From Oscillospiraceae bacterium (GTDB taxonomy: Bacteria > Bacillota > Clostridia > Oscillospirales > Ruminococcaceae), in NCBI GenBank assembly GCA_017848155.1, contig JAGAKC010000410.1:1-20062 (forward strand): 20,062 nt of DNA. Reading direction: 5' to 3'. This document shows, in pieces, positions 7,103 to 15,890 of this stretch. The position numbers and the translations under genes were made by a program. Within the stretch, counting starts at the first letter, position 1; every line of letters begins with the position of its first letter. The notes beneath the pieces are model-generated. The model was given only the letters and a program-made list of their open reading frames with translations, was not told where the DNA came from and made no database searches.

Positions 7103-7654
7103 ATGGCAAAGTATGTATGTCCCGTATGCGGTTATGTTCACGAAGGTGATTCTGCTCCCGAGAAGTGCCCCCAGTGCGGCGTACCCGGCAGCAAGTTCAA
7201 TGTAATGGCAGAGAGCGACAAGCTCGTATTTGCTGATGAGCACAGGATCGGTGTTGCAGCAGCAGTTACAGACACAGAGATCATTGAGGGTCTGCGTGCT
7301 AATTTTGCAGGCGAGTGCACAGAGGTAGGTATGTATCTTGCAATGGCAAGAGCTGCTCACAGAGAGGGCTATCCTGAGGTAGGTCTTTATTATGAGAAGG
7401 CTGCCTGGGAAGAGGCTGAGCATGCAGCAAAGTTTGCAGAGCTTCTCGGCGAGGTAGTTTCCGCTTCCACAAAGGAGAACCTCACAAAGCGTGTAGCAGC
7501 TGAGCATGGCGCTACAGAGGGCAAGCTCCAGCTTGCTAAGAGAGCAAAGGAGCTGGGTCTGGATGCTATTCACGATACTGTACATGAGATGGCAAAGGAC
7601 GAGGCAAGACACGGCAAGGCTTTTGAGGGTCTGCTGAACAGATACTTCAAGTAA
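7103..7654 (+). CDS. rbr: Reverse rubrerythrin (rubredoxin-like domain first, then diiron ferritin-like domain)
   Basis: This cytosolic diiron protein reduces hydrogen peroxide (and in some members oxygen) in anaerobes, drawing electrons through its rubredoxin centre. Domain order is reversed from classical rubrerythrin: an iron-binding CPVCG/CPQCG pair (Cys6, Cys9, Cys22, Cys25) comes first. A four-helix bundle follows, with [16 protein letters not shown], then a central EEAEH near residue 107 and EARH at residues 167-170, which supply the glutamate and histidine ligands of the diiron site. The 183-residue length is normal. The ATG sits behind AGGAGG; an in-frame TTG at 7067 would cover the ribosome binding site. 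The last 20 codons lie inside a direct repeat, because an integrative element has used the 3' end of the gene as its attachment site, leaving the protein intact. Confidence 0.96.
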
Positions 7655-7756
7655 GTCAGGCGATAAAGGCACATCTACGTCGTCAATGCCCATTCGGCAG
7701 GCACAAAGCCTGGCCCGAATGGGCTTTTCCTTGTATCTGCACCTTTCTCGCCTGAC
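7655..7756 (+). other. Long imperfect hairpin downstream of rubrerythrin
   Basis: The whole 102 bases can fold on itself. The outer arms GTCAGGCGA (7655-7663) and TCGCCTGAC (7748-7756) are perfect and continue through AAAGG against CCTTT. The inner arms GCCCATTCGG (7688-7697) and CCGAATGGGC (7715-7724) carry a CAGGC/GCCTG tip and are followed by TTTT. The inner part works as a Rho-independent terminator for rubrerythrin. The larger fold may be a structured RNA or a recombinase-recognised site. Confidence 0.75.
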
Positions 7757-7773
7757 TTGAATTACTGCGTTAC

Positions 7774-7811
7774 AAGAGGGCATTTCTCAATTTGAGGAGT
7801 GTCCTCTTTTT
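7774..7811 (+). terminator. Second intrinsic terminator in the left repeat
   Basis: AAGAGGGCATT pairs with AGTGTCCTCTT through two G-U wobbles, with a short inner CTCA/TGAG stem, and ends in TTTTT. It forms a tandem pair with the preceding hairpin and is present identically in the right repeat. Confidence 0.75.
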
Positions 7812-7916
7812 GTTGTGCCAAAAGCGATTTCAGCCCGTGAAAAGTGTCCTCGGAAAGTGTCCCCGCGCAAAGTGCGCTTATGAAATCTCTAAAATGTGTC
7901 CCTGAAAAATGTGTCC
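7799..7916 (+). repeat. Cluster of five GTGTCC motifs at the left end of the element
   Basis: GTGTCC occurs at 7799, 7844, 7857, 7896 and 7911, mostly as AAAGTGTCC or AAATGTGTCCC. Similar copies lie at the right end (13867 inverted, 13909, 14197). Short direct repeats flanking both junctions are typical arm-type sites for tyrosine integrases. Confidence 0.55.
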
Positions 7917-7921
7917 CGTAA

Positions 7922-8542
7922 TTATTTGTTTTCTGTAAGATTTACGAGCTTGTAAAAGCTCGTTCTTTTTGTGCCTGTCTGCTCAATAGCGACCTTTGCG
8001 GTTATCTCTCCCGACTTCCAAGAGGAATAAACGCTTTCCCAGTTCTCGGGGAATTCAAGAGCGGGTCTGCCTAGCTTCTTGCCATTCTGTTTAGCTGCTT
8101 CAATTCCCTCTGCCTGTCGTTTGCGTATCGTTTCACGCTCCTGCTCTGCAATAGTACCAAGCACTTCAATTAGAATGTTGTTCACCATTTCAAACACCCA
8201 TTCCTGTCCTGCGGGCAGTTCCATCATTGTTGTTGGTAAATCAATGACTTTCAGCCGAATTCCGTTGTCCTTGAAATATTGCAGTTCGTTGTGAATATCC
8301 ATCTTGTTTCTGCTCAATCTGTCGAGCGACTTCACAACAAGGGTATCACCACGGCGCAGCATAGCATTTTTGAGTACCTGATATCCTGCGCGTTCCAAGC
8401 TCTTGCCGCTTTCCTTGTCGGTGATGATGTCACGCTCCTGTGCTCCAAGAGCCTTAAAAGCTGCAAGCTGTCTGTCAAGGTTTTGCTCCTTGCTTGACAC
8501 TCTTGCGAACATATAAGAATGGAGCGGCAACCGCCGCCCCAT
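7922..8542 (-). CDS. Serine recombinase of the resolvase/invertase family
   Basis: The 206-residue protein has the short resolvase layout. The N-terminal catalytic domain opens with SYMFARVSSKEQNLDRQL, in which Ser16 is the expected nucleophile. It continues with DTLVVKSLDRLSRN, which supplies conserved arginines. A long helix (AEQERETIRKRQAEGIEAAK) leads to GRPAL and a C-terminal helix-turn-helix (about residues 170-200). Such enzymes resolve cointegrates or invert DNA; here it may resolve multimers of the element. The start is uncertain: the ATG at 8542 has no Shine-Dalgarno site and lies inside a hairpin repeat. The next ATG (8512) would cut off the strand just before the catalytic serine. 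It is the last gene of the leftward unit, 18 bases after the zinc-ribbon gene. Confidence 0.9.
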   Translation of the reverse strand: MGRRLPLHSYMFARVSSKEQNLDRQLAAFKALGAQERDIITDKESGKSLERAGYQVLKNAMLRRGDTLVVKSLDRLSRNKMDIHNELQYFKDNGIRLKVIDLPTTMMELPAGQEWVFEMVNNILIEVLGTIAEQERETIRKRQAEGIEAAKQNGKKLGRPALEFPENWESVYSSWKSGEITAKVAIEQTGTKRTSFYKLVNLTENK

Positions 8543-8544
8543 TC
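8517..8544 (-). repeat. Intercistronic GCGGC hairpin repeat, copy 1
   Basis: On the - strand GAATGGGGCGGC pairs with GCCGCTCCATTC over a GGTT loop: 12 pairs, one of them a G-U wobble. The core (8524-8538) recurs at 9714-9728 and 10610-10624. This copy contains the predicted start codon of the resolvase gene. Confidence 0.75.
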
Positions 8545-8560
8545 ATGTATGTGTATTTAT

Positions 8561-9616
8561 TTAGCTGTTCTCGTTATCTGAGTTCTGATGTTCTTGTTGT
8601 CTTTCTTTTTTAGCCATTGAGTTTGCCGTAGCTAAACCTACAAGCCCGCTTAAAACAAATATCATTCCTGGCATTAAGCCGATCAACATTAATTCTATAG
8701 ATTCTGTTGCAATGCCCATTAAGCCTAAAGCTAACAGCACACAACCTGTAATCAAGAAACCTTTTCCAAGACTTCTCTGCTGTTCAGCTGTTCGCTGTGT
8801 TGGCTTTGACACCTCAACTTCTTCCTCAAATGATGAATCAAGCTCTTTGATTTTAAGTGCATACTCATGTATCTGTTCAGACTTTACCATATGTTCTTTC
8901 ACACCTGCAGAAGGCGAAAAAGTTAGATTTGCCATATCATATTTTGCGTGTCGTATAATTAGCAGGCATTCCTTTATTACCTCTTCACTTATTCCTTTAC
9001 CGCTCTTTGAAATCTCTACCAGTTTGTTGTCAAGTGGGTCACAAGCTAAAACACAGCTGATAATAGTATTCTGAGCAACTGGACGAAGTTTTGAATAAAG
9101 ATCACTGTTTACTTTACCAGCAGCCGAAAGTATAAATCCACCTTCATATTGGCGAAGCAACGAAGCACCACTGCCAGCGATCCCATTAATTCTAGCTATC
9201 GTTTTGGTAGTAATCAATTTAATTCTTTTCTCTGCTTCACTTATTTCGCAGCCCTCTAAAGCCATATCATAAGCAGATGGAATGGTATTACCCAATTTAT
9301 CTGCTACAGAGCCTGCTTGTGAATTTGTAAAAGTAGTAAATTCTCCAAGGTAAGAATAAAAATACGCTTCCCAGTCATGGGGATTCTCATCAAGAATTTC
9401 CTTGTAATACTCAGCGGCATGTTCAAGGTCGTCAACTTCAATTGATTTTCTTGCTCTTTCATATAGATTAGAGAGCTTTTTACTGTTATCGACCTCGACC
9501 ATAATTTTTTTTGCGTCCTCTGCAGAATATTTCGTACCGCAGTTTTGACAAACAAACAAACTATTCTCTTTGACAAACTCATTGCCACCACATAGTTCAC
9601 ATACTAAAGCTTTCAT
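8561..9616 (-). CDS. Zinc-ribbon protein with TPR-like region and two C-terminal membrane helices
   Basis: The 351-residue protein begins with a four-cysteine zinc ribbon (Cys6-x2-Cys9 and Cys23-x2-Cys26), resembling TFIIB-type ribbons. A helical segment follows (about residues 50-85, with KLSNLYERARKSIEVDDLEHAAEYY) that reads like a tetratricopeptide unit. A long helical middle follows, and then two hydrophobic helices near residues 285-330, with a charged tail. It is thus a cytosolic domain anchored at the membrane. Similar zinc-ribbon proteins are common cargo in Firmicute mobile elements, but their role is not established. The ATG at 9616 has AAAGGG upstream; an in-frame ATG at 9640 lacks one. 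It lies between another zinc-ribbon membrane gene and the resolvase gene, same strand. Confidence 0.75.
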   Translation of the reverse strand: MKALVCELCGGNEFVKENSLFVCQNCGTKYSAEDAKKIMVEVDNSKKLSNLYERARKSIEVDDLEHAAEYYKEILDENPHDWEAYFYSYLGEFTTFTNSQAGSVADKLGNTIPSAYDMALEGCEISEAEKRIKLITTKTIARINGIAGSGASLLRQYEGGFILSAAGKVNSDLYSKLRPVAQNTIISCVLACDPLDNKLVEISKSGKGISEEVIKECLLIIRHAKYDMANLTFSPSAGVKEHMVKSEQIHEYALKIKELDSSFEEEVEVSKPTQRTAEQQRSLGKGFLITGCVLLALGLMGIATESIELMLIGLMPGMIFVLSGLVGLATANSMAKKERQQEHQNSDNENS

Positions 9617-9713
9617 ATATAACCCTTTCGTATTTGACAAATATATTCAAGACCGTTCATTTGTACACTTTGCCGCTACAAAAGCAGCAAAGCTATGTCC
9701 TAAAGTTCTCGGA

Positions 9714-9728
9714 GCGGCAACCGCCGCC
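9714..9728 (-). repeat. Intercistronic GCGGC hairpin repeat, copy 2
   Basis: The 15-base core is identical to copies at 8524 and 10610 and folds as GCGGC-GGTT-GCCGC on the - strand, with outer G-U pairing. It lies in the 136-base gap between the two zinc-ribbon genes. Confidence 0.7.
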
Positions 9729-9752
9729 TCATAAGATATGTACAAATTACGG

Positions 9753-10562
9753 TTAATCCTCAAAATAAAGCTTCATAGAATTATAGCAATTTACAGTTTC
9801 TGTGTCAGCCTCATTAAAAGCAGCAGAAAATGTTGTAAGGCTTCCCGTTGGATTAATAGCTAAATTTGTAAGTTCAATATATGCATCGTAATATTCTTTT
9901 AGTGCTTCGTACGCTTCCTGATGCTCCTCAGGGGGATTTTTCAAGTCCTTCATTAAACCTGCTACCAGTTCTTGATTGCTTTCGATATCAATGATTTGTG
10001 CCATAAATGTTGTATCAGCAAACAGATTACCGAGAGCTTCATTAAAATCATCTAAGAAATATCCATTCGGACGAGTATACTTATCTGTTTTGCTATCGTA
10101 CTCCTCGTGAATTGAATTATACCATACGCTCTTAATAAGGTTACCAGCAGATTCAGCATCAGCAGCGCCATCAAGCATTTCATATGCAACTGTTTCAACT
10201 TTATTTATATAATCTTCAGCAGCTTTCTTTTGGTTGCTGCTAGAAATCAATGAGAATATCAATACACCAACTGCAATCAATACAGCAGCAATAATTCCAA
10301 AGAGAATAAATTTCTTTGTCGACCTCTTCATCTGGAGATTAACAGATGTTACCTCAACTTTTTGCGCTGCTACTTCTTCCTTTTTTGATACAGGACAACC
10401 ACAGTTAGGACAAGTAGTTGCACCAGTGGGTATTTCAGTGTTACATTCTTCGCATAGTATAACAGCTTCAGTCTTTTCAATCAGCAATTCATTGCAATGA
10501 GGACAATTTTTTGCCTTATCGCTTACATTTTTCCCACAGTGTTTACATTGTATCAATGCCAT
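9753..10562 (-). CDS. Double zinc-ribbon protein with one membrane helix and an outer domain
   Basis: The 269-residue product carries two tandem zinc ribbons at the N-terminus: Cys6/Cys9 with Cys20/Cys23, and Cys37/Cys40 with Cys51/Cys54 (CPHC and CPNCGCP knuckles). A basic stretch (MKRSTKK) and one hydrophobic helix at about residues 84-106 follow. The last 160 residues are acidic and helical and should lie outside the cell, by the positive-inside rule. I do not recognise a family for that part. The architecture parallels the neighbouring 351-residue protein, so the two may form a membrane complex; this is inferred from position. The ATG has an AGAGGT Shine-Dalgarno site. Spacers in this unit contain the GCGGC hairpin repeat. 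Confidence 0.75.
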   Translation of the reverse strand: MALIQCKHCGKNVSDKAKNCPHCNELLIEKTEAVILCEECNTEIPTGATTCPNCGCPVSKKEEVAAQKVEVTSVNLQMKRSTKKFILFGIIAAVLIAVGVLIFSLISSSNQKKAAEDYINKVETVAYEMLDGAADAESAGNLIKSVWYNSIHEEYDSKTDKYTRPNGYFLDDFNEALGNLFADTTFMAQIIDIESNQELVAGLMKDLKNPPEEHQEAYEALKEYYDAYIELTNLAINPTGSLTTFSAAFNEADTETVNCYNSMKLYFED

Positions 10563-10609
10563 AATATTTACCTCTTTCTTTTTATTTGGATTTATTTGCC
10601 GTCACAAAA

Positions 10610-10624
10610 GCGGCAACCGCCGCC
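10610..10624 (-). repeat. Intercistronic GCGGC hairpin repeat, copy 3
   Basis: The same 15-base core lies 6 bases past the end of the HTH gene. On the - strand GGGGCGGC pairs with GCCGCTTTT and is followed by TTTTG, so this copy also looks like a weak terminator or attenuator ahead of the zinc-ribbon genes. Confidence 0.7.
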
Positions 10625-10630
10625 CCATAT

Positions 10631-10816
10631 TTATTCCATTGCATTTGCCACATACCTTACCGCTGCAATAGCAGTTTCATACAAATGCACATATCGGGAA
10701 ACAGTTGCGGGGCTGCGGTGCATTTTTGTTGCAACGGTCTTGAAACACCCGTATTTTTGATACAGCTCCCACATACGCTCCTTTTCTTTCTGCGTTACCC
10801 GTGTTCCCTTTGTCAT
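10631..10816 (-). CDS. Small helix-turn-helix protein (61 aa)
   Basis: The product is a single homeodomain-like helix-turn-helix: QKEKERMWELYQKYG is the first helix pair, and FKTVATKMHRSPATVSRYVH has the spacing of a recognition helix. Its small size and basic N-terminus fit a transcriptional regulator or excision/recombination accessory factor of the element; the sequence does not choose between these. The start codon overlaps the stop of the preceding 67-residue gene (ATGA), so the two are translationally coupled. Downstream comes the third GCGGC hairpin. Confidence 0.7.
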   Translation of the reverse strand: MTKGTRVTQKEKERMWELYQKYGCFKTVATKMHRSPATVSRYVHLYETAIAAVRYVANAME

Positions 10817-11016
10817 CTGCGTTTAGATAAGTCGCTCTTGCGGATATAGGGATTTTTCAATGCCTTTTCAATTGCGTCCTCTACATAAGCAGTGTATTCG
10901 ATCTTCTTTTCTTCTGCTCCCGCCTTAACAAGCACCTCGTTCATCTTGTCAATCTGCGCATAAAAGCTGTCGGGAACAATAACCTGTTCTCTTTCAGTGT
11001 CGATGATAATTCTCAT
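10813..11016 (-). CDS. Small protein of unknown function (67 aa), first gene of the leftward unit
   Basis: I do not recognise the family. The product starts MRIIIDTEREQVIVPDSFYA, a short beta strand followed by helices (AQIDKMNEVLVKAG, YTAYVEDAIEKAL), and ends in a basic tail (KSDLSKRR). The pattern of a strand followed by two helices is reminiscent of small DNA-binding or antitoxin-like proteins, but this is only a resemblance. The ATG at 11016 stands behind a perfect AGGAGG; an ATG at 11070 in frame is unlikely because it falls near the predicted -10 region. The gene overlaps the HTH gene by 4 bases. The upstream region holds a TTGACT -35-like box and a GCGTGACACGC palindrome. Confidence 0.65.
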   Translation of the reverse strand: MRIIIDTEREQVIVPDSFYAQIDKMNEVLVKAGAEEKKIEYTAYVEDAIEKALKNPYIRKSDLSKRR

Positions 11017-11045
11017 TTGAATTCCTCCTATTGTTTTATTACAAA

Positions 11046-11056
11046 GCGTGACACGC
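11046..11056 (-). promoter_or_regulatory. Operator-like palindrome upstream of the 67-aa gene
   Basis: GCGTGACACGC is a perfect 5-1-5 palindrome. It lies between a possible promoter (TTGACT on the - strand, plus-strand 11084-11089, followed by an A/T-only stretch) and the AGGAGG of the gene. Its position suits a repressor site for the leftward unit, perhaps bound by the unit's own HTH protein. Confidence 0.45.
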
Positions 11057-11365
11057 CTTGCTATATCCATTATATATATATAAAGTCAATAGTTTTTTGT
11101 GAGATTTGTCAATTTTTCTGATAATCTGTCAAGATTTCGATAGAAACAGGTGGATTTTATTAGATTTCAATTAAATCTGGCTAATTCAGATAAAAACAAT
11201 AGAAAACAGATAAAATTTATTGCGATAGGAGCGGAAACGGGGAAATCAGACAGCATTTCAAGCCGATACGCACCACCCCCGCCGCTTTATTCTGCTGCCG
11301 CTTTTATTCTCCCATAATATACCCCGCCCCAAACTGCCGCTTGCCGCTGCGTGTGGCGGATTACT

Positions 11366-11582
11366 TTGATTTTCATAAAAATTTTTATTATAATTATGAT
11401 ATAAGAAAAGAGAAAACAAAGTCAATCTGCAACAGCCAAATCCAAAGAGCTTCACTTTGATTTTTCAAAAAAATTTAAGTATAATTATTATAGAAAATGA
11501 AACGGAAAATTAAATTCCGAGCGACAACAGACTTGAACACCAAGCGGATTATTTTGATTTTCCAAAAAATATTTATTATAAT
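11366..11582 (+). repeat. Three tandem promoter-like repeats (possible iterons)
   Basis: Three AT-rich copies start at 11366, 11457 and 11554, 91 and 97 bases apart. Each reads TTGATT, exactly 17 bases, TATAAT (-10 boxes at 11389, 11480 and 11577), inside about 40 bases of wider similarity. They precede the replication-type gene pair. They could be three stacked promoters, or iteron-like binding sites for the downstream protein. The rest of the 11017-11642 gap is A/T-rich, with CAGATAAAA repeated at 11187 and 11207, 20 bases apart, and no gene that I can support. Confidence 0.6.
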
Positions 11583-11590
11583 TATTGTAG

Positions 11591-11612
11591 GAAGTAAAGA
11601 AATAATTACTTC
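11591..11612 (+). promoter_or_regulatory. Inverted repeat after the third promoter-like repeat
   Basis: GAAGTAA (11591-11597) and TTACTTC (11606-11612) flank an 8-base centre, directly where transcription from the third promoter-like repeat would begin. It is an operator candidate for the two-gene rightward unit. Confidence 0.4.
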
Positions 11613-11642
11613 AAGAATTCAAGAGATAAAAGGAGTATTATA

Positions 11643-11930
11643 ATGAAATTTAAAGATTATCACCCACATATTGAAGTTATCAGCAATATGGCAGAAAAAG
11701 CATCAGACCCTAAATGTTATCCTTATCTACTTCAAAGAGAACTGGCACACGACCGAATATTCACAAGGTATTGTATGGAAAGAGAGCTGACCCCAAAAGA
11801 AATTGATATGATTGTTGATAAAGTAATTCAGCGGCTATCGGTACGGGCAGACACAAAGCAGGCAATACAACAGATTGAAAGCCTGAATAAAGCTATCACA
11901 GATTTAACAACCATAGGAGGACAAAAGTAA
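11643..11930 (+). CDS. Small protein of unknown function (95 aa) ahead of the replication-type gene
   Basis: I do not recognise this family. The 95-residue product is mostly helical and soluble, with no signal or membrane segment. It begins MKFKDYHPHIEVISNMAEKA, has a PKEIDMIVDKVIQRL helix in the middle and ends in a probable coiled coil (QAIQQIESLNKAITDL). The ATG is preceded by AAAGGAG. The stop codon abuts the ATG of the next gene with no gap, and the AGGAGG for that gene lies inside this one, so the pair is translationally coupled. A helper or regulator of the following winged-helix protein is a reasonable guess from context only. Confidence 0.65.
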   Translation: MKFKDYHPHIEVISNMAEKASDPKCYPYLLQRELAHDRIFTRYCMERELTPKEIDMIVDKVIQRLSVRADTKQAIQQIESLNKAITDLTTIGGQK

Positions 11931-12503
11931 ATGACATATCCAAATCAAAGAACTGTAAAAATTCATAGAGAAAAACCAAAGTCTGATTTTCTCGGAATTA
12001 AAAATGAGAACTGGAAAGCGGCAAGCCGCAATTTAAGCGCACACTCTTTCCTGTTGTATATCTACCTTGCTTCCAATGCAGACAACTATTCCCTTGCTCT
12101 ATCTCCTGCCGCTGTCCGTCAGGAGATTGGAATGGCTCGTTCCACCTACCACGACCAGTTTCACATACTTGTTGATAAAGGCTACCTTGTTCCGACACAC
12201 GGAAATACATACGAATTTTTTGAAGTACCTCGAACGAGCCGCGGAGAAGATAAGGAAGAAGAAAGTACAATGTTGGCAGACGGAATTGATTTTGCCGCTT
12301 GTACAGATGACGGAAACGCTTTGCCGCAAATCGACAAGATTGAATTGTCAGAGGATATAGAAATAAATAATAGCCAAGAGAATATAAATAAAGGGATAAA
12401 TAATGAACAGACACAGCAAGATGAACAACAGCCGATGACAACAGTAAAAGAGATTACAATACCATCACCAAGAGCAAGACCGTCAAAGAAATTCAGATTT
12501 TAA
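11931..12503 (+). CDS. Winged-helix protein, replication-initiator-like
   Basis: The 190-residue protein resembles the helix-turn-helix, Rep-like proteins of Firmicute mobile elements. The N-terminal half includes FLGIKNENWKAASRNLSAHS, then FLLYIYLASNADNYSLALSP, then a winged helix (AAVRQEIGMARSTYHDQFHILVDKGYLV, residues 62-89) ending in a wing that carries HGNTYEFFEV. The remaining 90 residues are acidic and low in complexity, closing in a basic tail (RPSKKFRF). It could start replication of the excised circle or regulate the element; the sequence alone cannot separate these. Three promoter-like or iteron-like repeats lie upstream. It is followed by a strong terminator, with the integrase gene converging from the other side. 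Confidence 0.72.
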   Translation: MTYPNQRTVKIHREKPKSDFLGIKNENWKAASRNLSAHSFLLYIYLASNADNYSLALSPAAVRQEIGMARSTYHDQFHILVDKGYLVPTHGNTYEFFEVPRTSRGEDKEEESTMLADGIDFAACTDDGNALPQIDKIELSEDIEINNSQENINKGINNEQTQQDEQQPMTTVKEITIPSPRARPSKKFRF

Positions 12504-12508
12504 AAGGC

Positions 12509-12542
12509 AAGCGGCGGGAGCTGTAAACTTCCGCCGCTTTGG
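12509..12542 (+). terminator. Terminator after the replication-type gene
   Basis: AAGCGGCGGGAG and CTTCCGCCGCTT pair with one G-U wobble across a 7-base loop. It sits 5 bases past the stop codon. The T-run is short (TTT), but the stem is very stable. It stands in the convergent gap before the integrase stop at 12611. Confidence 0.75.
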
Positions 12543-12610
12543 TGTATTCTGTTGTCCGTTTCTGCGGAAGTGTTCAGCATAATTGCTGCCGAGCTTTGCC
12601 GCTGCGTTCG

Positions 12611-13846
12611 TTACTTTTCGCTTTTGTAATCAGTGTCTATCTGATTGAGCTTTTTTTGCAGAACTTCAATTCCTGTCTTTGATACTGCAAGATAATACTG
12701 TTCTGTCACCTTACCGCTTGCGTGTCCCATCTGATTTGTAAGCAAGTGCGTTGGTGTGTTAAGCTCTGCGAGCCGTGTTCCGTAGGTATGACGAAGATAA
12801 TGGAATTTGAAATCAATGTTCAGCTTGCTTTTTATCGTGCAGCTATGATATTTCATTGAGTTTACGGTCTGTATCTTTCCATTCGGCAAGCTATTGACTA
12901 GCAGCAGCGAGGAAATCTTATTTCCGTCAAGGTCTGTTATGTATGTGCTGTTCTGTTTACGCTGCGCTTTCAGCTTCTTTGCGTGTATCTCGGTCTGTTG
13001 TTTGAGCTGCGTGAAATATTCAATCAACTTGTCACTCATATAAACAACTCTGCGTGAGTTGCGGGTCTTTAGTGATACAAGCTTTATAAGCCCGTCCTGA
13101 TACTGCATTTGTCTGTCTATTGTGATAGCCCCTTTTTCAAGGTCTATGTTCTCCCATTTAAGCCCGTAGCATTCGTTTATACGCAGCCCACAGCATTTAC
13201 CGAGAAGATATGCGGTTTCAGCGTTCGACCCGCGGAAATACTCGTCAAGCTGCTCTATCTCTTCAACAGAAAAAGCCACGATATCAATATCATCATCGAC
13301 TTTCATTTTAGGCATACGAATTCGTATATCCTTATTTACACACAGCTTGTTGTATGTATCAACATCAATATAGTTTCGTGAATATGCCTGACCAAAAACG
13401 AGATAGAACATTTTGAGAAAGCCCTCTACATACATAAAAGACCGACCCTCATCATAATACAGCCTTGCAAGATAGTCGTTGACTTCCGCAACAGATATAT
13501 CATCAATAAACCGCGCCCCGAAATTCACTGAAATGTGATTGCGCCATAAGCTGTCCTGCTTCTTGATAGTAGCATAAGACTTGCCGCTGCGACCATTCTC
13601 ACAGTATTCCTCATAAACCTCTTGCACGGTCATTCTGCGCAGCGGCTTCTCGTGCAGACTTGCTTCAAATTTAAGCTCTGCGATATGCCTTGCTCGTATT
13701 GCTTCATTCTTTGTAAGCAAGGGATTTCCGAATTCGTCCTTTGAGTTCTTTCGGTTGATACGCTTTCCGTCTACTGTTTTGGTGAAACGGTAAGCCCATC
13801 TTCCACTCTTTAACTGATAAACTCCGAGCTGATTGTTGTTTGACAT
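12611..13846 (-). CDS. int: Tyrosine integrase of the element
   Basis: This 411-residue site-specific recombinase should carry out integration and excision of the element. The N-terminal part has an AP2-like arm-binding domain (QLKSGRWAYRFTKTVDGKR, about residues 11-30), then a SAM-like core-binding domain (about 70-165). The catalytic domain shows the whole active set: Arg222 in CGLRINE, Lys260 in SLKTRNSRR, His349 and Arg352 in HYLRH, His375 in QMGHAS, and the nucleophile at Tyr384 or Tyr385 in TEQYYLAVS. The start follows a perfect AGGAGG. The gene reads inward from the right junction, with the attachment repeat about 140 bases upstream. GTGTCC motifs, probable integrase arm sites, overlap its promoter region, so the protein may regulate its own expression. 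Confidence 0.95.
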   Translation of the reverse strand: MSNNNQLGVYQLKSGRWAYRFTKTVDGKRINRKNSKDEFGNPLLTKNEAIRARHIAELKFEASLHEKPLRRMTVQEVYEEYCENGRSGKSYATIKKQDSLWRNHISVNFGARFIDDISVAEVNDYLARLYYDEGRSFMYVEGFLKMFYLVFGQAYSRNYIDVDTYNKLCVNKDIRIRMPKMKVDDDIDIVAFSVEEIEQLDEYFRGSNAETAYLLGKCCGLRINECYGLKWENIDLEKGAITIDRQMQYQDGLIKLVSLKTRNSRRVVYMSDKLIEYFTQLKQQTEIHAKKLKAQRKQNSTYITDLDGNKISSLLLVNSLPNGKIQTVNSMKYHSCTIKSKLNIDFKFHYLRHTYGTRLAELNTPTHLLTNQMGHASGKVTEQYYLAVSKTGIEVLQKKLNQIDTDYKSEK

Positions 13847-13866
13847 AATGTTATCCTCCTGTTTGA

Positions 13867-13914
13867 GGACACATCAGGTCACATTTTATACATTTTCATA
13901 AGCGGCAAGTGTCC
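13867..13914. repeat. GTGTCC motifs at the right end of the element
   Basis: An inverted GGACAC (13867-13872) and a direct GTGTCC (13909-13914, context CAAGTGTCCC) lie between the integrase start and the right repeat. They match the five copies at the left end and are candidate arm-type integrase sites. Confidence 0.5.
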
Positions 13915-13925
13915 CTGTCCAAATC

Positions 13926-13987
13926 CGATAAGCGCAGCGGCGAAGCCGCTTCTCGGGGATTGCGTAGCGAAGCGAAGCACTCCCCGC
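13926..13987. other. GC-rich hairpin patch beside the right repeat
   Basis: AGCGGC-GAA-GCCGCT forms a tight stem with a 3-base loop, followed by CGGGGA and TCCCCG arms around a GC-rich middle that contains GCGAAGCGAAGC. It is base-compositionally distinct from the AT-rich DNA on its left and ends exactly where the right repeat begins. Confidence 0.5.
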
Positions 13988-14212
13988 GGCAAAGGACGAA
14001 GCAAGACACGGCAAGGCATTTGAGGGACTTCTCAACAGATACTTCAAGTAAAGTCAAGCGATAAAGGCACATCTACGTCGTCAATGCCCATTCGGCAGGC
14101 ACAAAGCCTAGCCCGAATGGGCTTTTCCTTGTATCTGCACCTTTCTCGCCTGACTTGAATTACTGCGTTACAAGAGGGCATTTCTCAATTTGAGGAGTGT
14201 CCTCTTTTTGTT
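13988..14212 (+). repeat. Right direct repeat / attachment site (attR)
   Basis: It contains an orphan copy of the last 20 rubrerythrin codons and the stop codon (14049-14051), then the same terminator region. It still encodes the identical peptide with five silent changes. It has no start of its own and is not a gene. The long hairpin (14053-14154) and the terminator (14172-14209) are kept. Confidence 0.92.
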
Positions 14213-14242
14213 TTCGGGTCGGATTTGGCTTGTAAAGAACAT

Positions 14243-14295
14243 AAGCGGCAAACGTGCTCCCCTGCAAAGGTAATGCACAGCCTGCCGCTTTTTTT
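14243..14295 (+). terminator. Branched terminator-like hairpin right of the element
   Basis: AAGCGGCA (14243-14250) pairs with TGCCGCTT (14283-14290), followed by a run of T's, with an inner GTGC/GCAC stem. No + strand gene precedes it, so it may be a relic of a lost gene from an earlier insertion. Confidence 0.5.
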
Positions 14296-14407
14296 CGATT
14301 TCTGTTGTCTTTATCATGAAAGGAAGTGTTTGTCATTGTATCGAAAATTGTCAGAAAACCGTTTTCTGAAATCAAATGTGCTTTTGGTGAAGGCGCAGAC
14401 CACCCCA

Positions 14408-14428
14408 CACCGCAAATTCGTGTTGCGG
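14408..14428. other. Possible origin-of-transfer-like inverted repeat
   Basis: ACCGCAA and TTGCGGT are perfect 7-base arms around a 7-base loop, followed about 20 bases on by a C-rich GCAGCCCCCCGAC. An inverted repeat next to a short unpaired nick region is the usual layout of mobilisation origins. No relaxase gene is present here. The rest of the 14213-14457 gap has no supported gene. Confidence 0.3.
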
Positions 14429-14457
14429 TTTGGTTTTCCCGAAAGGCAGCCCCCCGA

Positions 14458-15318
14458 CTATCCGTTGAAATAGTCAATAACGAATTCCTTGAATCTACTA
14501 AATATATACTGAAAAGAAACATATACTGCACGCATAGCAGGAATTAATTCATCACAATTGTTATTAAATGAAATATAGTTTGTTTCATTAATTGAACATA
14601 TACATAATTCATCTATTGCAGAAATATTAAAATGAGTATAATGACATAATGATGGATATATAATATCTCTACTATTTTTATCATCATCAATTGTATCGAT
14701 GTCATTAAGCATTTGTTTAACAATCTTCGTAGCTGAATAATCTTTTCCTATCTTTTTAGACAAATAATTAATAGCTTTATTTATAATGTCAATTTCTTCT
14801 TCTGTAAAACTTGTATTGCTTTCAGAATATTGCGGAACATTAAAATATGATATTTCTTCTGAAAAGTATTTATTTAGATTATTACAAAATCTATTATAAT
14901 ATAAAATGTCAGCATCACCCCAATTATTAATAATATCCCTATCTTGTAGCATATCTTTATACACTAGATACTTGTAGAACTTGCTTACTTCCATACTGGA
15001 TTTATTACATTCGTTAATTAAATAGAATATTAATGAACATTCTTCGATAGCTGAACGAGCTAAAAGAATCATACCAACATTCTTACTATTTTGTTGTAAA
15101 AGTGCTATTTGTGATGATAATTCAGCCACATTTCCTAAATGTAACATAGAATATTTTATTTCTTCTTTATGACAATTATTAAATTGTTCACCATATTGCT
15201 TTATAAAGTCAAAAACATCAGAACACAACGAATCAATTTGTAAAGCAATGTCTTTTCTAATATTTAAAGATTGTTGTGCACGCTCTGCGATTATATTAAC
15301 TAATTGATTTTCATTCAT
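14458..15318 (-). CDS. DUF5677/AbiV-like helical protein, possible defence protein
   Basis: The 286-residue product is all-helical, soluble and AT-rich in its codons. The segment GMILLARSAIEECSLIFYLI (about residues 82-101) with its Arg-Ser-x-x-Glu pattern, and a later SLCHYTHFNISAIDEL with two histidines, resemble the helical families DUF5677 and AbiV, some of which are linked to phage abortive infection. The match is by pattern only, and the function is not established. The start codon overlaps the stop of the zinc-ribbon gene by 8 bases, with a GAGGAG inside that gene, so the two proteins are made together. It ends beside the origin-like inverted repeat. Composition is far below the core in GC, which suggests recent transfer. 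Confidence 0.6.
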   Translation of the reverse strand: MNENQLVNIIAERAQQSLNIRKDIALQIDSLCSDVFDFIKQYGEQFNNCHKEEIKYSMLHLGNVAELSSQIALLQQNSKNVGMILLARSAIEECSLIFYLINECNKSSMEVSKFYKYLVYKDMLQDRDIINNWGDADILYYNRFCNNLNKYFSEEISYFNVPQYSESNTSFTEEEIDIINKAINYLSKKIGKDYSATKIVKQMLNDIDTIDDDKNSRDIIYPSLCHYTHFNISAIDELCICSINETNYISFNNNCDELIPAMRAVYVSFQYIFSRFKEFVIDYFNG

Positions 15319-15748
15319 ATTTTTCTAACTCCTCTTGAACAGCAGAAATAAACTGATAATCATCATAACATTTCTCACAAAAATTAGTTCTTGCGATTGA
15401 AGATTTATTATCAATATCTGTATATGTTTTGTCACAGTGCGCACATTTATACTCTTTATCAGAAGTGTTTGACAAGGAAATTATTGCATATAAGACACCG
15501 ATAACACCAATTAATACTAATAATGCCACGACAGCGTATATCATATGTTCATACTTGCGAGATTTCTTTACTTGTTCTTTTTGAGTGTTGATTTTTTCTC
15601 TTACTTCGTTCAACTGTTCATCGTCATCGTCGAATTTTTGCACATAAGTAGTTATTTTCATCAAAGTTATATTACAATTGTCGCAATTAATAGCTTTTTG
15701 GGGATATTTTGTTTTGCACTGCGGACAAATTTTCTTAAAATTCTCCAT
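15311..15748 (-). CDS. Membrane protein with zinc ribbons on both sides of one helix
   Basis: The 145-residue protein starts with a zinc ribbon (Cys8-x2-Cys11 and Cys22-x2-Cys25), then an acidic and then basic linker predicted to be helical (DDDDEQLNEVREKINTQKEQ). One transmembrane helix follows at about residues 69-90, and then a second four-cysteine unit (CAHC at about 102 and CEKC at about 124). I do not recognise the family. It is the first gene of a two-gene operon under a consensus promoter and is coupled by overlap to the DUF5677/AbiV-like gene. An in-frame ATG at 15793 is rejected because the ATG at 15748 has GGAGG at a proper distance. It resembles in layout the two zinc-ribbon membrane proteins of the neighbouring element. 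Confidence 0.7.
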   Translation of the reverse strand: MENFKKICPQCKTKYPQKAINCDNCNITLMKITTYVQKFDDDDEQLNEVREKINTQKEQVKKSRKYEHMIYAVVALLVLIGVIGVLYAIISLSNTSDKEYKCAHCDKTYTDIDNKSSIARTNFCEKCYDDYQFISAVQEELEKYE

Positions 15749-15784
15749 ACTATAACCTCCGAAACAAATGATATTAATAATTAA

Positions 15785-15813
15785 ATTATACATAATAATG
15801 CACTTCTTGTCAA
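15785..15813 (-). promoter_or_regulatory. Perfect sigma-A promoter of the zinc-ribbon/DUF5677-like operon
   Basis: On the - strand TTGACA (plus-strand 15808-15813) and TATAAT (plus-strand 15785-15790) are separated by exactly 17 bases. Transcription would start near 15778 and give a leader of about 30 bases to the ATG at 15748. Confidence 0.9.
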
Positions 15814-15890
15814 TGTTGCAATTATTTCAAATCAAACATTTAACACATTATAATAAATTATATCAATGTTAAATATCCAATCGAAATATA

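Follow-up and report, generated by a model that had tools for sequence, protein, structure and literature searches.

We examined a 20,062-nucleotide stretch of DNA from an Oscillospiraceae bacterium (contig JAGAKC010000410.1; the whole stretch is called the window below), in which a rubrerythrin gene (rbr) and a second copy of its 3' end enclose a block of DNA carrying a tyrosine integrase gene. The features that concern the two junctions are as follows (related genomes, contigs, and loci are designated by our own G, C, and L numbers).

7103..7654, plus strand: rubrerythrin gene (rbr), with an N-terminal rubredoxin-like domain; frame intact
7591..7814, plus strand: left attachment repeat (attL side), with the last 20 rbr codons, a hairpin repeat, and a terminator
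7598..7615 (= 13995-14012), plus strand: probable crossover region, codons GAC GAG GCA AGA CAC GGC (DEARHG); position deduced
7616..7654, plus strand: probable element-borne tail, restoring the C terminus of rbr
7650..7760, plus strand: copy of a genus-restricted covarying hairpin repeat, ∼105 nt
7774..7808 (approximate), plus strand: intrinsic-terminator-like hairpin followed by a T run (computed fold)
12611..13846, minus strand: tyrosine integrase, 411 aa (PF00589, E=2e-17; PF14659, E=6.6e-5)
13988..14212, plus strand: right attachment repeat (attR side), with an rbr 3' fragment, the hairpin repeat, and a terminator

The rbr gene is complete and open, from an ATG at 7103 to a stop codon at 7652-7654 in the list of open reading frames (ORFs). 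A previous reading made without database searches (the sequence-only reading) had proposed an integrative element bounded by two direct repeats, each with the last 20 rbr codons and the terminator region, and we recovered both repeats at the positions given there: 7591-7814 and 13988-14212 are 96% identical over 225 bp in a single joined alignment (an ungapped search returns the pair as two families, 162 bp at 99% and 64 bp at 92%) and contain the last 20 rbr codons plus 160 bp of the DNA behind them. Since the remaining direct-repeat families listed for the window (minimum length, 25; seed, 12) reach 42 and 43 bp, such a match is not due to chance. The "terminator region" proved to consist of two parts: a terminator-like hairpin is indeed present, but so is the ∼105-nt hairpin, which belongs to a dispersed family. 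The block between the repeats measures 6.4 kb and has the tyrosine integrase at its right end, as proposed, reading away from the right repeat. Integrase residues R222, K260, H349, R352, H375, Y384, and Y385 are invariant across 14 aligned relatives and, from what is known of the family, are presumably catalytic. A tRNA or known RNA as the target was considered and rejected, as the window contains no tRNA and no Rfam match.

We then looked at the surroundings of related integrases. A search for homologues of the integrase gave ∼3800, the best 120 of which were listed. A scan of one genome per species confirmed 90 stretches, of which the best 80 were kept, yielding 78 loci, all from Clostridia and largely from those of the gut (Lachnospiraceae, Oscillospiraceae, Butyricicoccus, Oribacterium, Flavonifractor, Oscillibacter, Mogibacterium, and others); the named loci include Butyricicoccus pullicaecorum ET57 (L139) and Oribacterium sp. 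P6A1 (L114). An rbr fragment was scored when a match with an E value of <0.01 reached residue 180 or beyond, on the strand opposite to the integrase gene and at most 900 bp upstream of it. Such a 3' fragment was found 40 to 272 bp upstream of the integrase start at 62 of the 78 loci, as in the window; 37 loci have a full-length rbr beyond the integrase, and 31 have both, with stop-to-stop distances of 3.7 to 11.0 kb. Of the 16 misses, seven are truncated by a contig end, either inside the integrase gene or no more than 260 bp from its start (L124, L146, L156, L165, L174, L176, and L179), rbr is on the same strand as the integrase in L156 (also cut by the contig end), L175, and L177, and the fragment is lacking or lost in L116, L142, L158, L167, L170, L178, and L182. 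Some rbr match was present in the fetched DNA of 75 loci (in L170, only to a distant paralogue, at 31 to 32%). No rbr match at an E value of ≤0.01 was obtained around 28 other tyrosine integrases taken as controls, each together with ∼1.5 kb of DNA to its left and right; these controls came from congeners and other genera of the order and were 19 to 28% identical to our integrase where matched (the match was printed for 27).

The same integrase clade is thus located at the same target in unrelated hosts (62/78, versus 0/28 for controls), and not beside some other target. Its targeting of rubrerythrin is real and general. Both repeats without the genes between them were not seen in the related genomes examined. 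In a separate sample of 391 Clostridia genomes, where no more than four candidates were scored in each, detection at an E value of ≤1e-80 was limited to the window's genome and two others, both of which carry the rbr fragment; the integrase is therefore uncommon per genome yet faithful to its target. One could suppose instead that the repeats arose when the rbr 3' region was duplicated segmentally, with the integrase as a chance neighbor, and we did find two orphan rbr 3' ends without an integrase match (G003:C19 and G012:C46, both at contig ends). This explanation is extremely improbable given that the fragment lies beside the integrase at 62 of 78 loci from several families and at none of the 28 controls.

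To describe the junctions, left and right copies were compared at 32 occupied sites; L149 was left out of the position counts because the ungapped alignment failed, leaving 31 pairs, and positions were numbered from the first base of the stop codon. The third bases of the DEARHG codons (−52 to −37) are identical in 25 to 27 of the 31 pairs, those of the tail (−34 to −1) in 19 to 25, and the second and third bases behind the stop codon agree in only 11. Farther upstream, third-base agreement is 20/31 at −58 and 19/31 at −55. In 22 of the 32 pairs, the local alignment stops no more than 14 bases from where the stop codon begins. The high wobble identity over DEARHG, together with the end of identity near the stop codon, indicates that the crossover probably lies in the DEARHG codons, ∼18 codons before the stop. 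The insertion site proposed at the 3' end of rbr would thus probably have to be shifted upstream by about that distance. In an alignment with a solved rubrerythrin (9fj2), DEARHG falls on the second ExxH, in this family a metal-ligand motif of the diiron site; among 164 six-codon windows across 38 rbr genes it ranks 16th, i.e., well conserved, although not at the top.

A comparison of an occupied site (G012) with a continuous one (G022) fits this placement. Upstream of the core, 38 of 498 positions differ between the two; from the core to the terminator, 2 of 297 do, with zero differences from −75 to +157 (counted here from the first base after the stop codon), and similarity is gone beyond about +240. 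The tail is not generally so much more conserved, as mean divergence in 91 congeneric pairs is 0.137 in the tail versus 0.158 upstream. G022 had been a candidate occupied site with an orphan fragment; this was rejected because its two contigs share exactly 141 identical bases, an overlap that stems from the assembly, and the site was reclassified as continuous.

In the window, the left and right rbr 3' ends show five differences, all at third codon positions and all synonymous, so both copies were once selected as coding DNA. Behind the stop codon we found a 1-nt indel just after it and two substitutions in the hairpin, and the terminal ∼99 bp show no differences. This stretch, the longest identical one, lies at the 3' edge of the repeat, as would be expected if the same element had entered the same target by a crossover there, in the terminator; the left rbr would then be native and the right fragment would be passenger DNA on the element's arm. 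We consider such a crossover improbable, since the 22 alignments that end close to the stop codon share no 3' edge beyond it, an rbr 3' end would serve nothing on the arm of the element, and the G012/G022 pattern places the junction 5' of the tail.

Sites without the element were found among congeners. An independent congener, G031, carries an integrase 60% identical to that of the window in the same layout (locus L147, record JAGASH010000002.1), with rbr and a rubredoxin gene followed by an 8.9-kb element (stop to stop), the rbr 3' end, and a second rubredoxin gene. Behind its right repeat, G031 is collinear in patches with G016 and G019, which carry an additional zinc-ribbon gene close to the site and are less than perfect as element-free sites; from ∼2 kb on, it rejoins, at ∼66 to 74% nucleotide identity, a gene cluster that in G009, G020, G025, G032, G034, and G036 sits behind rbr (or rbr-rubredoxin) without an element. 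Of 34 congeners, 16 (17 if G022 is counted) have a rubredoxin gene behind rbr, and among the matches listed a conserved opposite-strand gene cluster then follows in many of the 34. In G003, the ends of a window-type element are on separate contigs, the left one with a resolvase behind rbr-rubredoxin and the right one with a window-like right arm before the fragment. The same resolvase is found behind rbr-rubredoxin in G012 (only its last 49 residues before the contig end) and G015. In another genus, we compared G107 with 30 relatives: the first kilobase behind the right fragment gave only weak or short matches (best, G461, 541-924, 65%), and a gene further on in G107 has copies at 68 to 75% identity that lie upstream of rbr where both are on one contig (for example, in G458, G449, G452, and G398).

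We propose that the tyrosine integrase inserts the element into the 3' part of the rubrerythrin gene, with strand exchange probably taking place over the codons of the second diiron ExxH (DEARHG, 7598-7615 = 13995-14012), within GAYGARGCNMGNCAYGGN. Next to the core, the attachment site of the element (attP) would carry a working replacement for the rest of rbr, its last ∼18 codons. On the left, rbr would then be rebuilt from the 5' part of the host gene and the element-borne 3' part, and on the right the displaced chromosomal 3' end would stay behind as a stub. We hold it to be highly probable that the 6.4-kb block is such an integrative element, brought into the 3' part of rbr by the tyrosine integrase that it encodes, with a DEARHG crossover and an element-borne tail. 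The sequence-only reading had the rbr frame repaired upon insertion; the gene is intact, and the left/right identity pattern fits a tail supplied by the element and suggests that this integrase clade restores rubrerythrin after insertion. The element would presumably leave by excision, and related copies may have spread in the same way.

Several observations weigh against this proposal or blur it. The third base at −61 also agrees in 27 of the 31 pairs, which is less telling because the codon is Met (ATG), without a synonym, in most of them. No 7-bp window is identical in all 31 pairs (best, 23/31), so that the core is unproven to the base. Similarity continues past the stop codon, to between +23 and +226, in 10 of the 32 pairs (L106, L108, L109, L110, L137, L141, L147, L157, L173, and the window). 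In L128, L130, and L151, the right copy has an extra 98 to 178 bp of rbr 5' of the core, 90 to 94% identical, in conflict with a simple insertion, which predicts none. The G012/G022 pair was picked after the similarity had been noticed and uses two contigs joined at the 141-base overlap. The constant presence of the tail in the right fragment is to some extent a product of the scan, which asked for residue 180 or beyond. In the window, the tail has 4 differences in 36 positions and the hairpin behind it is 98.8% identical; because the tail diverges more than the hairpin, later conversion between the copies is possible. The search for empty sites suggested with the sequence-only reading led to uninterrupted congeneric sites relative to G031, but for the element of the window neither a same-species empty site nor an excised circle was found. 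Its right flank shares only short patches with congeneric rbr neighborhoods, and no empty site can be shown for it because the cluster gene that was searched for is on another contig of its genome.

The start of the right copy varies, from far upstream to −51 (in L127). Right-end fragments with 53 to 115 rbr codons instead of ∼18 were noted in L128, L130, L134, L140, L145, and L169, those of L128 and L130 being 91 to 94% identical to the full gene. Such long fragments are perhaps host sequence captured at an earlier excision. We also noted orphan rbr 3' ends of ∼50 bp in another genus (G457:C8, G459:C67, G455:C8, G450:C321, and G447:C69), possibly marking other elements at the same gene.

The length of the duplicated block differs between hosts. 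Outside the genus, 22 of 30 pairs end near the stop codon and 8 extend further. In the window, the block reaches +163 and takes in the hairpin repeat and the terminator; no rubredoxin gene was found behind its rbr. In G031 it reaches +226, and in G003 about +250 (85% identical), in both cases through a rubredoxin gene and terminator. A rubredoxin gene behind both copies is rare, being present at 2 of the 78 loci, L110 (outside the genus) and G031 (L147), and also in G003, of the same genus as G031. The cassette of this genus would thus be a longer one, comprising rubredoxin plus terminator in some species and hairpin repeat plus terminator in the window. We tentatively extend the proposal to an integrase clade specialized on the metal-ligand codons of rbr and carrying exchangeable cassettes, with a whole downstream gene included in at least one genus and in L110; this extension is possible but rather doubtful. 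Rubrerythrin is a peroxide-defense gene of anaerobes. If the extension is true, each insertion would swap the end of the host rbr and install a second rubredoxin, editing an oxygen-defense operon during integration.

The contents of the 6.4-kb block, from left to right, are as follows, the integrase gene having been given above.

7843..7916, plus strand: left arm with four GTGTCC direct repeats (7843, 7856, 7895, and 7910), candidate integrase arm sites
7922..8542, minus strand: serine recombinase of the resolvase/invertase type, 206 aa (PF00239, E=3.5e-30; phrog_125)
8561..9640, minus strand: 359-aa cargo protein with an N-terminal zinc-ribbon-like stretch (family matches under curated cutoffs)
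9753..10562, minus strand: 269-aa double-zinc-ribbon cargo protein (PF12773; phrog_4852, E=7.6e-34), with a relative at 54% identity in the G031 element
10631..10816, minus strand: 61-aa helix-turn-helix-like protein (HTH_38, E=3.3e-5, under the cutoff)
10813..11070, minus strand: 85-aa protein, of a cluster present in 4 of the 32 elements
11643..11930, plus strand: 95-aa ORF without a family match
11931..12503, plus strand: replication-initiation-like protein, 190 aa (phrog_270, E=3.1e-6; cluster in 8 of the 32 elements)
13847..13987, plus strand: right arm, from the integrase start to the right repeat, with GGACAC at 13866 and GTGTCC at 13908
∼13955-13986, plus strand: hairpin abutting the right repeat (read by eye)

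Eight elements (L106, L108 to L111, L114, L163, and that of the window) share an organization in which the left repeat has a serine recombinase of 202 to 209 aa at it or beside it, the right end is occupied by the integrase, and the slot between the two varies in content. No single open frame was called for the integrase of L163, and in L110 a 78-aa ORF lies on the outer side of the recombinase. Among the products encoded in the slots are zinc-ribbon, SHOCT, and lipoprotein-like proteins. Family tallies cover 150 of the 170 element proteins of at least 125 aa (the 20 left out are mostly repeats of listed clusters) and exclude proteins of 395 to 420 aa as integrase sized, by which a few others were lost. 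The serine recombinase cluster occurs in 22 of the 32 elements, a WYL-type regulator cluster in 18, and the replication-like protein in 8. Over the 150 proteins, PADLOC returned 15 families, mostly WYL (17 and 14 members), followed by mREase_IV (5), DpdF (5), Cas3c (4), and single matches. Defense cargo was considered for the window's element and rejected: six of its eight ORFs were compared with PADLOC, and none of the six matched. We noted that ORF 15311-15793, outside the element, matches AbiTi at an E value of 0.0077 in PADLOC and, by eye, that L083:5275-13811, behind the resolvase at the G015 rbr site, contains McrB/McrC-like and DNA cytosine methyltransferase-like genes and further defense-like and phage-like genes. 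In window-type elements (L105 to L111, L163, and L070, besides that of the window), a small hairpin, read by eye, directly borders the rbr fragment on its element-facing side; the stem varies, and the loop is similar (gcgaagcgaag-like in several).

The short direct repeats at both ends are likely arm-type integrase sites. In the window, the left arm has four copies of the hexamer GTGTCC and the right arm two, one of them inverted. A heptamer present at both ends with a summed count of at least 5 was found in 21 of the 32 elements, whereas 100 shuffles gave 3.5 of 32 on average and never more than 7; single shuffled ends can outscore every real end, and the window, with a score of 4, is below the threshold. 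The motifs differ among elements (GTGTCC, TTGTAAA, AGTGGAT, AGGACAA, and TGCCACA) and the core stays the same; within the tentative extension given above, this would suggest that arm and core recognition evolve separately.

Among the eight ORFs of the window's element, no relaxase or conjugation gene was found at an E value of ≤0.01 and no capsid, terminase, or tail gene; the 25 listed of the 44 Pfam families from the 150 related-element proteins likewise include no relaxase or conjugation family. The element may carry an origin of transfer alone. An integrase together with a replication gene would also be expected of a phage satellite (PICI-like), which in addition depends on a helper for packaging; the window's element has a replication-initiation-like gene. 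Plasmid and phage records contained none with the integrase at an E value of ≤1e-40, and no viral contig was confirmed; a phage, plasmid, or viral-contig origin was rejected, as relatives of the integrase were not found in those collections. The same searches, together with the lack of an observed circular form, would suit an element that is dead, i.e., a fixed genomic island that no longer moves, which is compatible with the proposed origin. We regard this as unlikely, although less so than the alternatives above: the integrase, the resolvase, and rbr are all open, both repeats are present, and related elements occur in many species.

Two further observations concern the repeats and the right flank. 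The ∼110-nt hairpin repeat, at 7650-7760 and 14048-14158 of the window, was found in all 28 genomes of the genus (the window's own included) and in none of 18 from other genera, a single genome giving as many as 66 matches (no more than 83 candidates being scored). In an alignment of 48 distinct rows, which was fitted to the model and includes some antisense self-matches, 93.9% of the cells pair versus 75.1% in shuffles, and double changes occur in 30 of 38 pairs versus 19.8. The repeat has conserved internal loops and no Rfam match and is a candidate for an unnamed structured RNA or a REP-like mobile hairpin. Downstream of the right repeat, 14213-15867 is A+T rich (GC content down to 26%), with a DUF5677 gene at 14458-15318. 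A TTGTAAA motif is located close to the start of this A+T-rich stretch, and its positions 14238-14454 match a part of the G031 element at 69% identity; the region is possibly the remnant of a second rbr element in tandem.

The kind of element and its mechanism are known; the target, its breadth, and the multigene repair cassette are, as far as searched, undescribed. We found no report of rubrerythrin as an integration target in searches of the PMC literature (subscription papers being outside its scope): the papers retrieved either name rubrerythrin for other reasons or give no hint of this site in the title or the opening of the abstract. The word rubrerythrin is absent from the main texts of two papers on comparable systems (PMC10111431 and PMC4701971). 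The rbr gene would offer a testable attachment site common to Lachnospiraceae, Oscillospiraceae, and other Clostridia, which helps to find and bound small mobile elements and might serve as a landing site when strains are engineered in genera where tools are scarce. Where its repair cassette extends across the end of one gene into the next, an integrase could change a host operon and still leave it unbroken.

The nearest solved relatives of the integrase profile are PDB entries 6emy, 6emz, and 6en0 ("Int protein"; E=4.2e-7, with a best stretch of 77 profile positions only), which we take to be the Tn1549-type integrase. As in other gene-restoring islands of tyrosine integrases, the integrase is at one end beside an attachment repeat, the target is intact after insertion, and a displaced 3' fragment lies at the other end. 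Phage 21 and e14 are the names associated with integration at icd in Enterobacteria. The mechanism is not new, because gene repair is well known at icd, guaA, rpsI, and others (PMC10111431 and PMC4701971). For streptococcal integrative and conjugative elements, PMC4701971 gives the 3' ends of rplL, rpsI, lysS, rpmG, and guaA as sites; like ours, these elements have a tyrosine integrase and direct repeats, related integrases share a target, and insertion takes place at the 3' end of a housekeeping gene with little or no damage to that gene. In contrast to them, no conjugation or mobilization gene was recognized in the window's element. Integration at icd (PMC10111431) likewise combines a tyrosine integrase and a conserved protein gene with a replacement sequence carried on attP, giving an identity block of up to ∼250 bp. 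The rubrerythrin elements differ from it in their target, in their size of ∼3.7 to 11 kb (that of the window being without a phage structural gene), and in that the duplicated block of G031, G003, and L110 includes or adjoins a rubredoxin gene.

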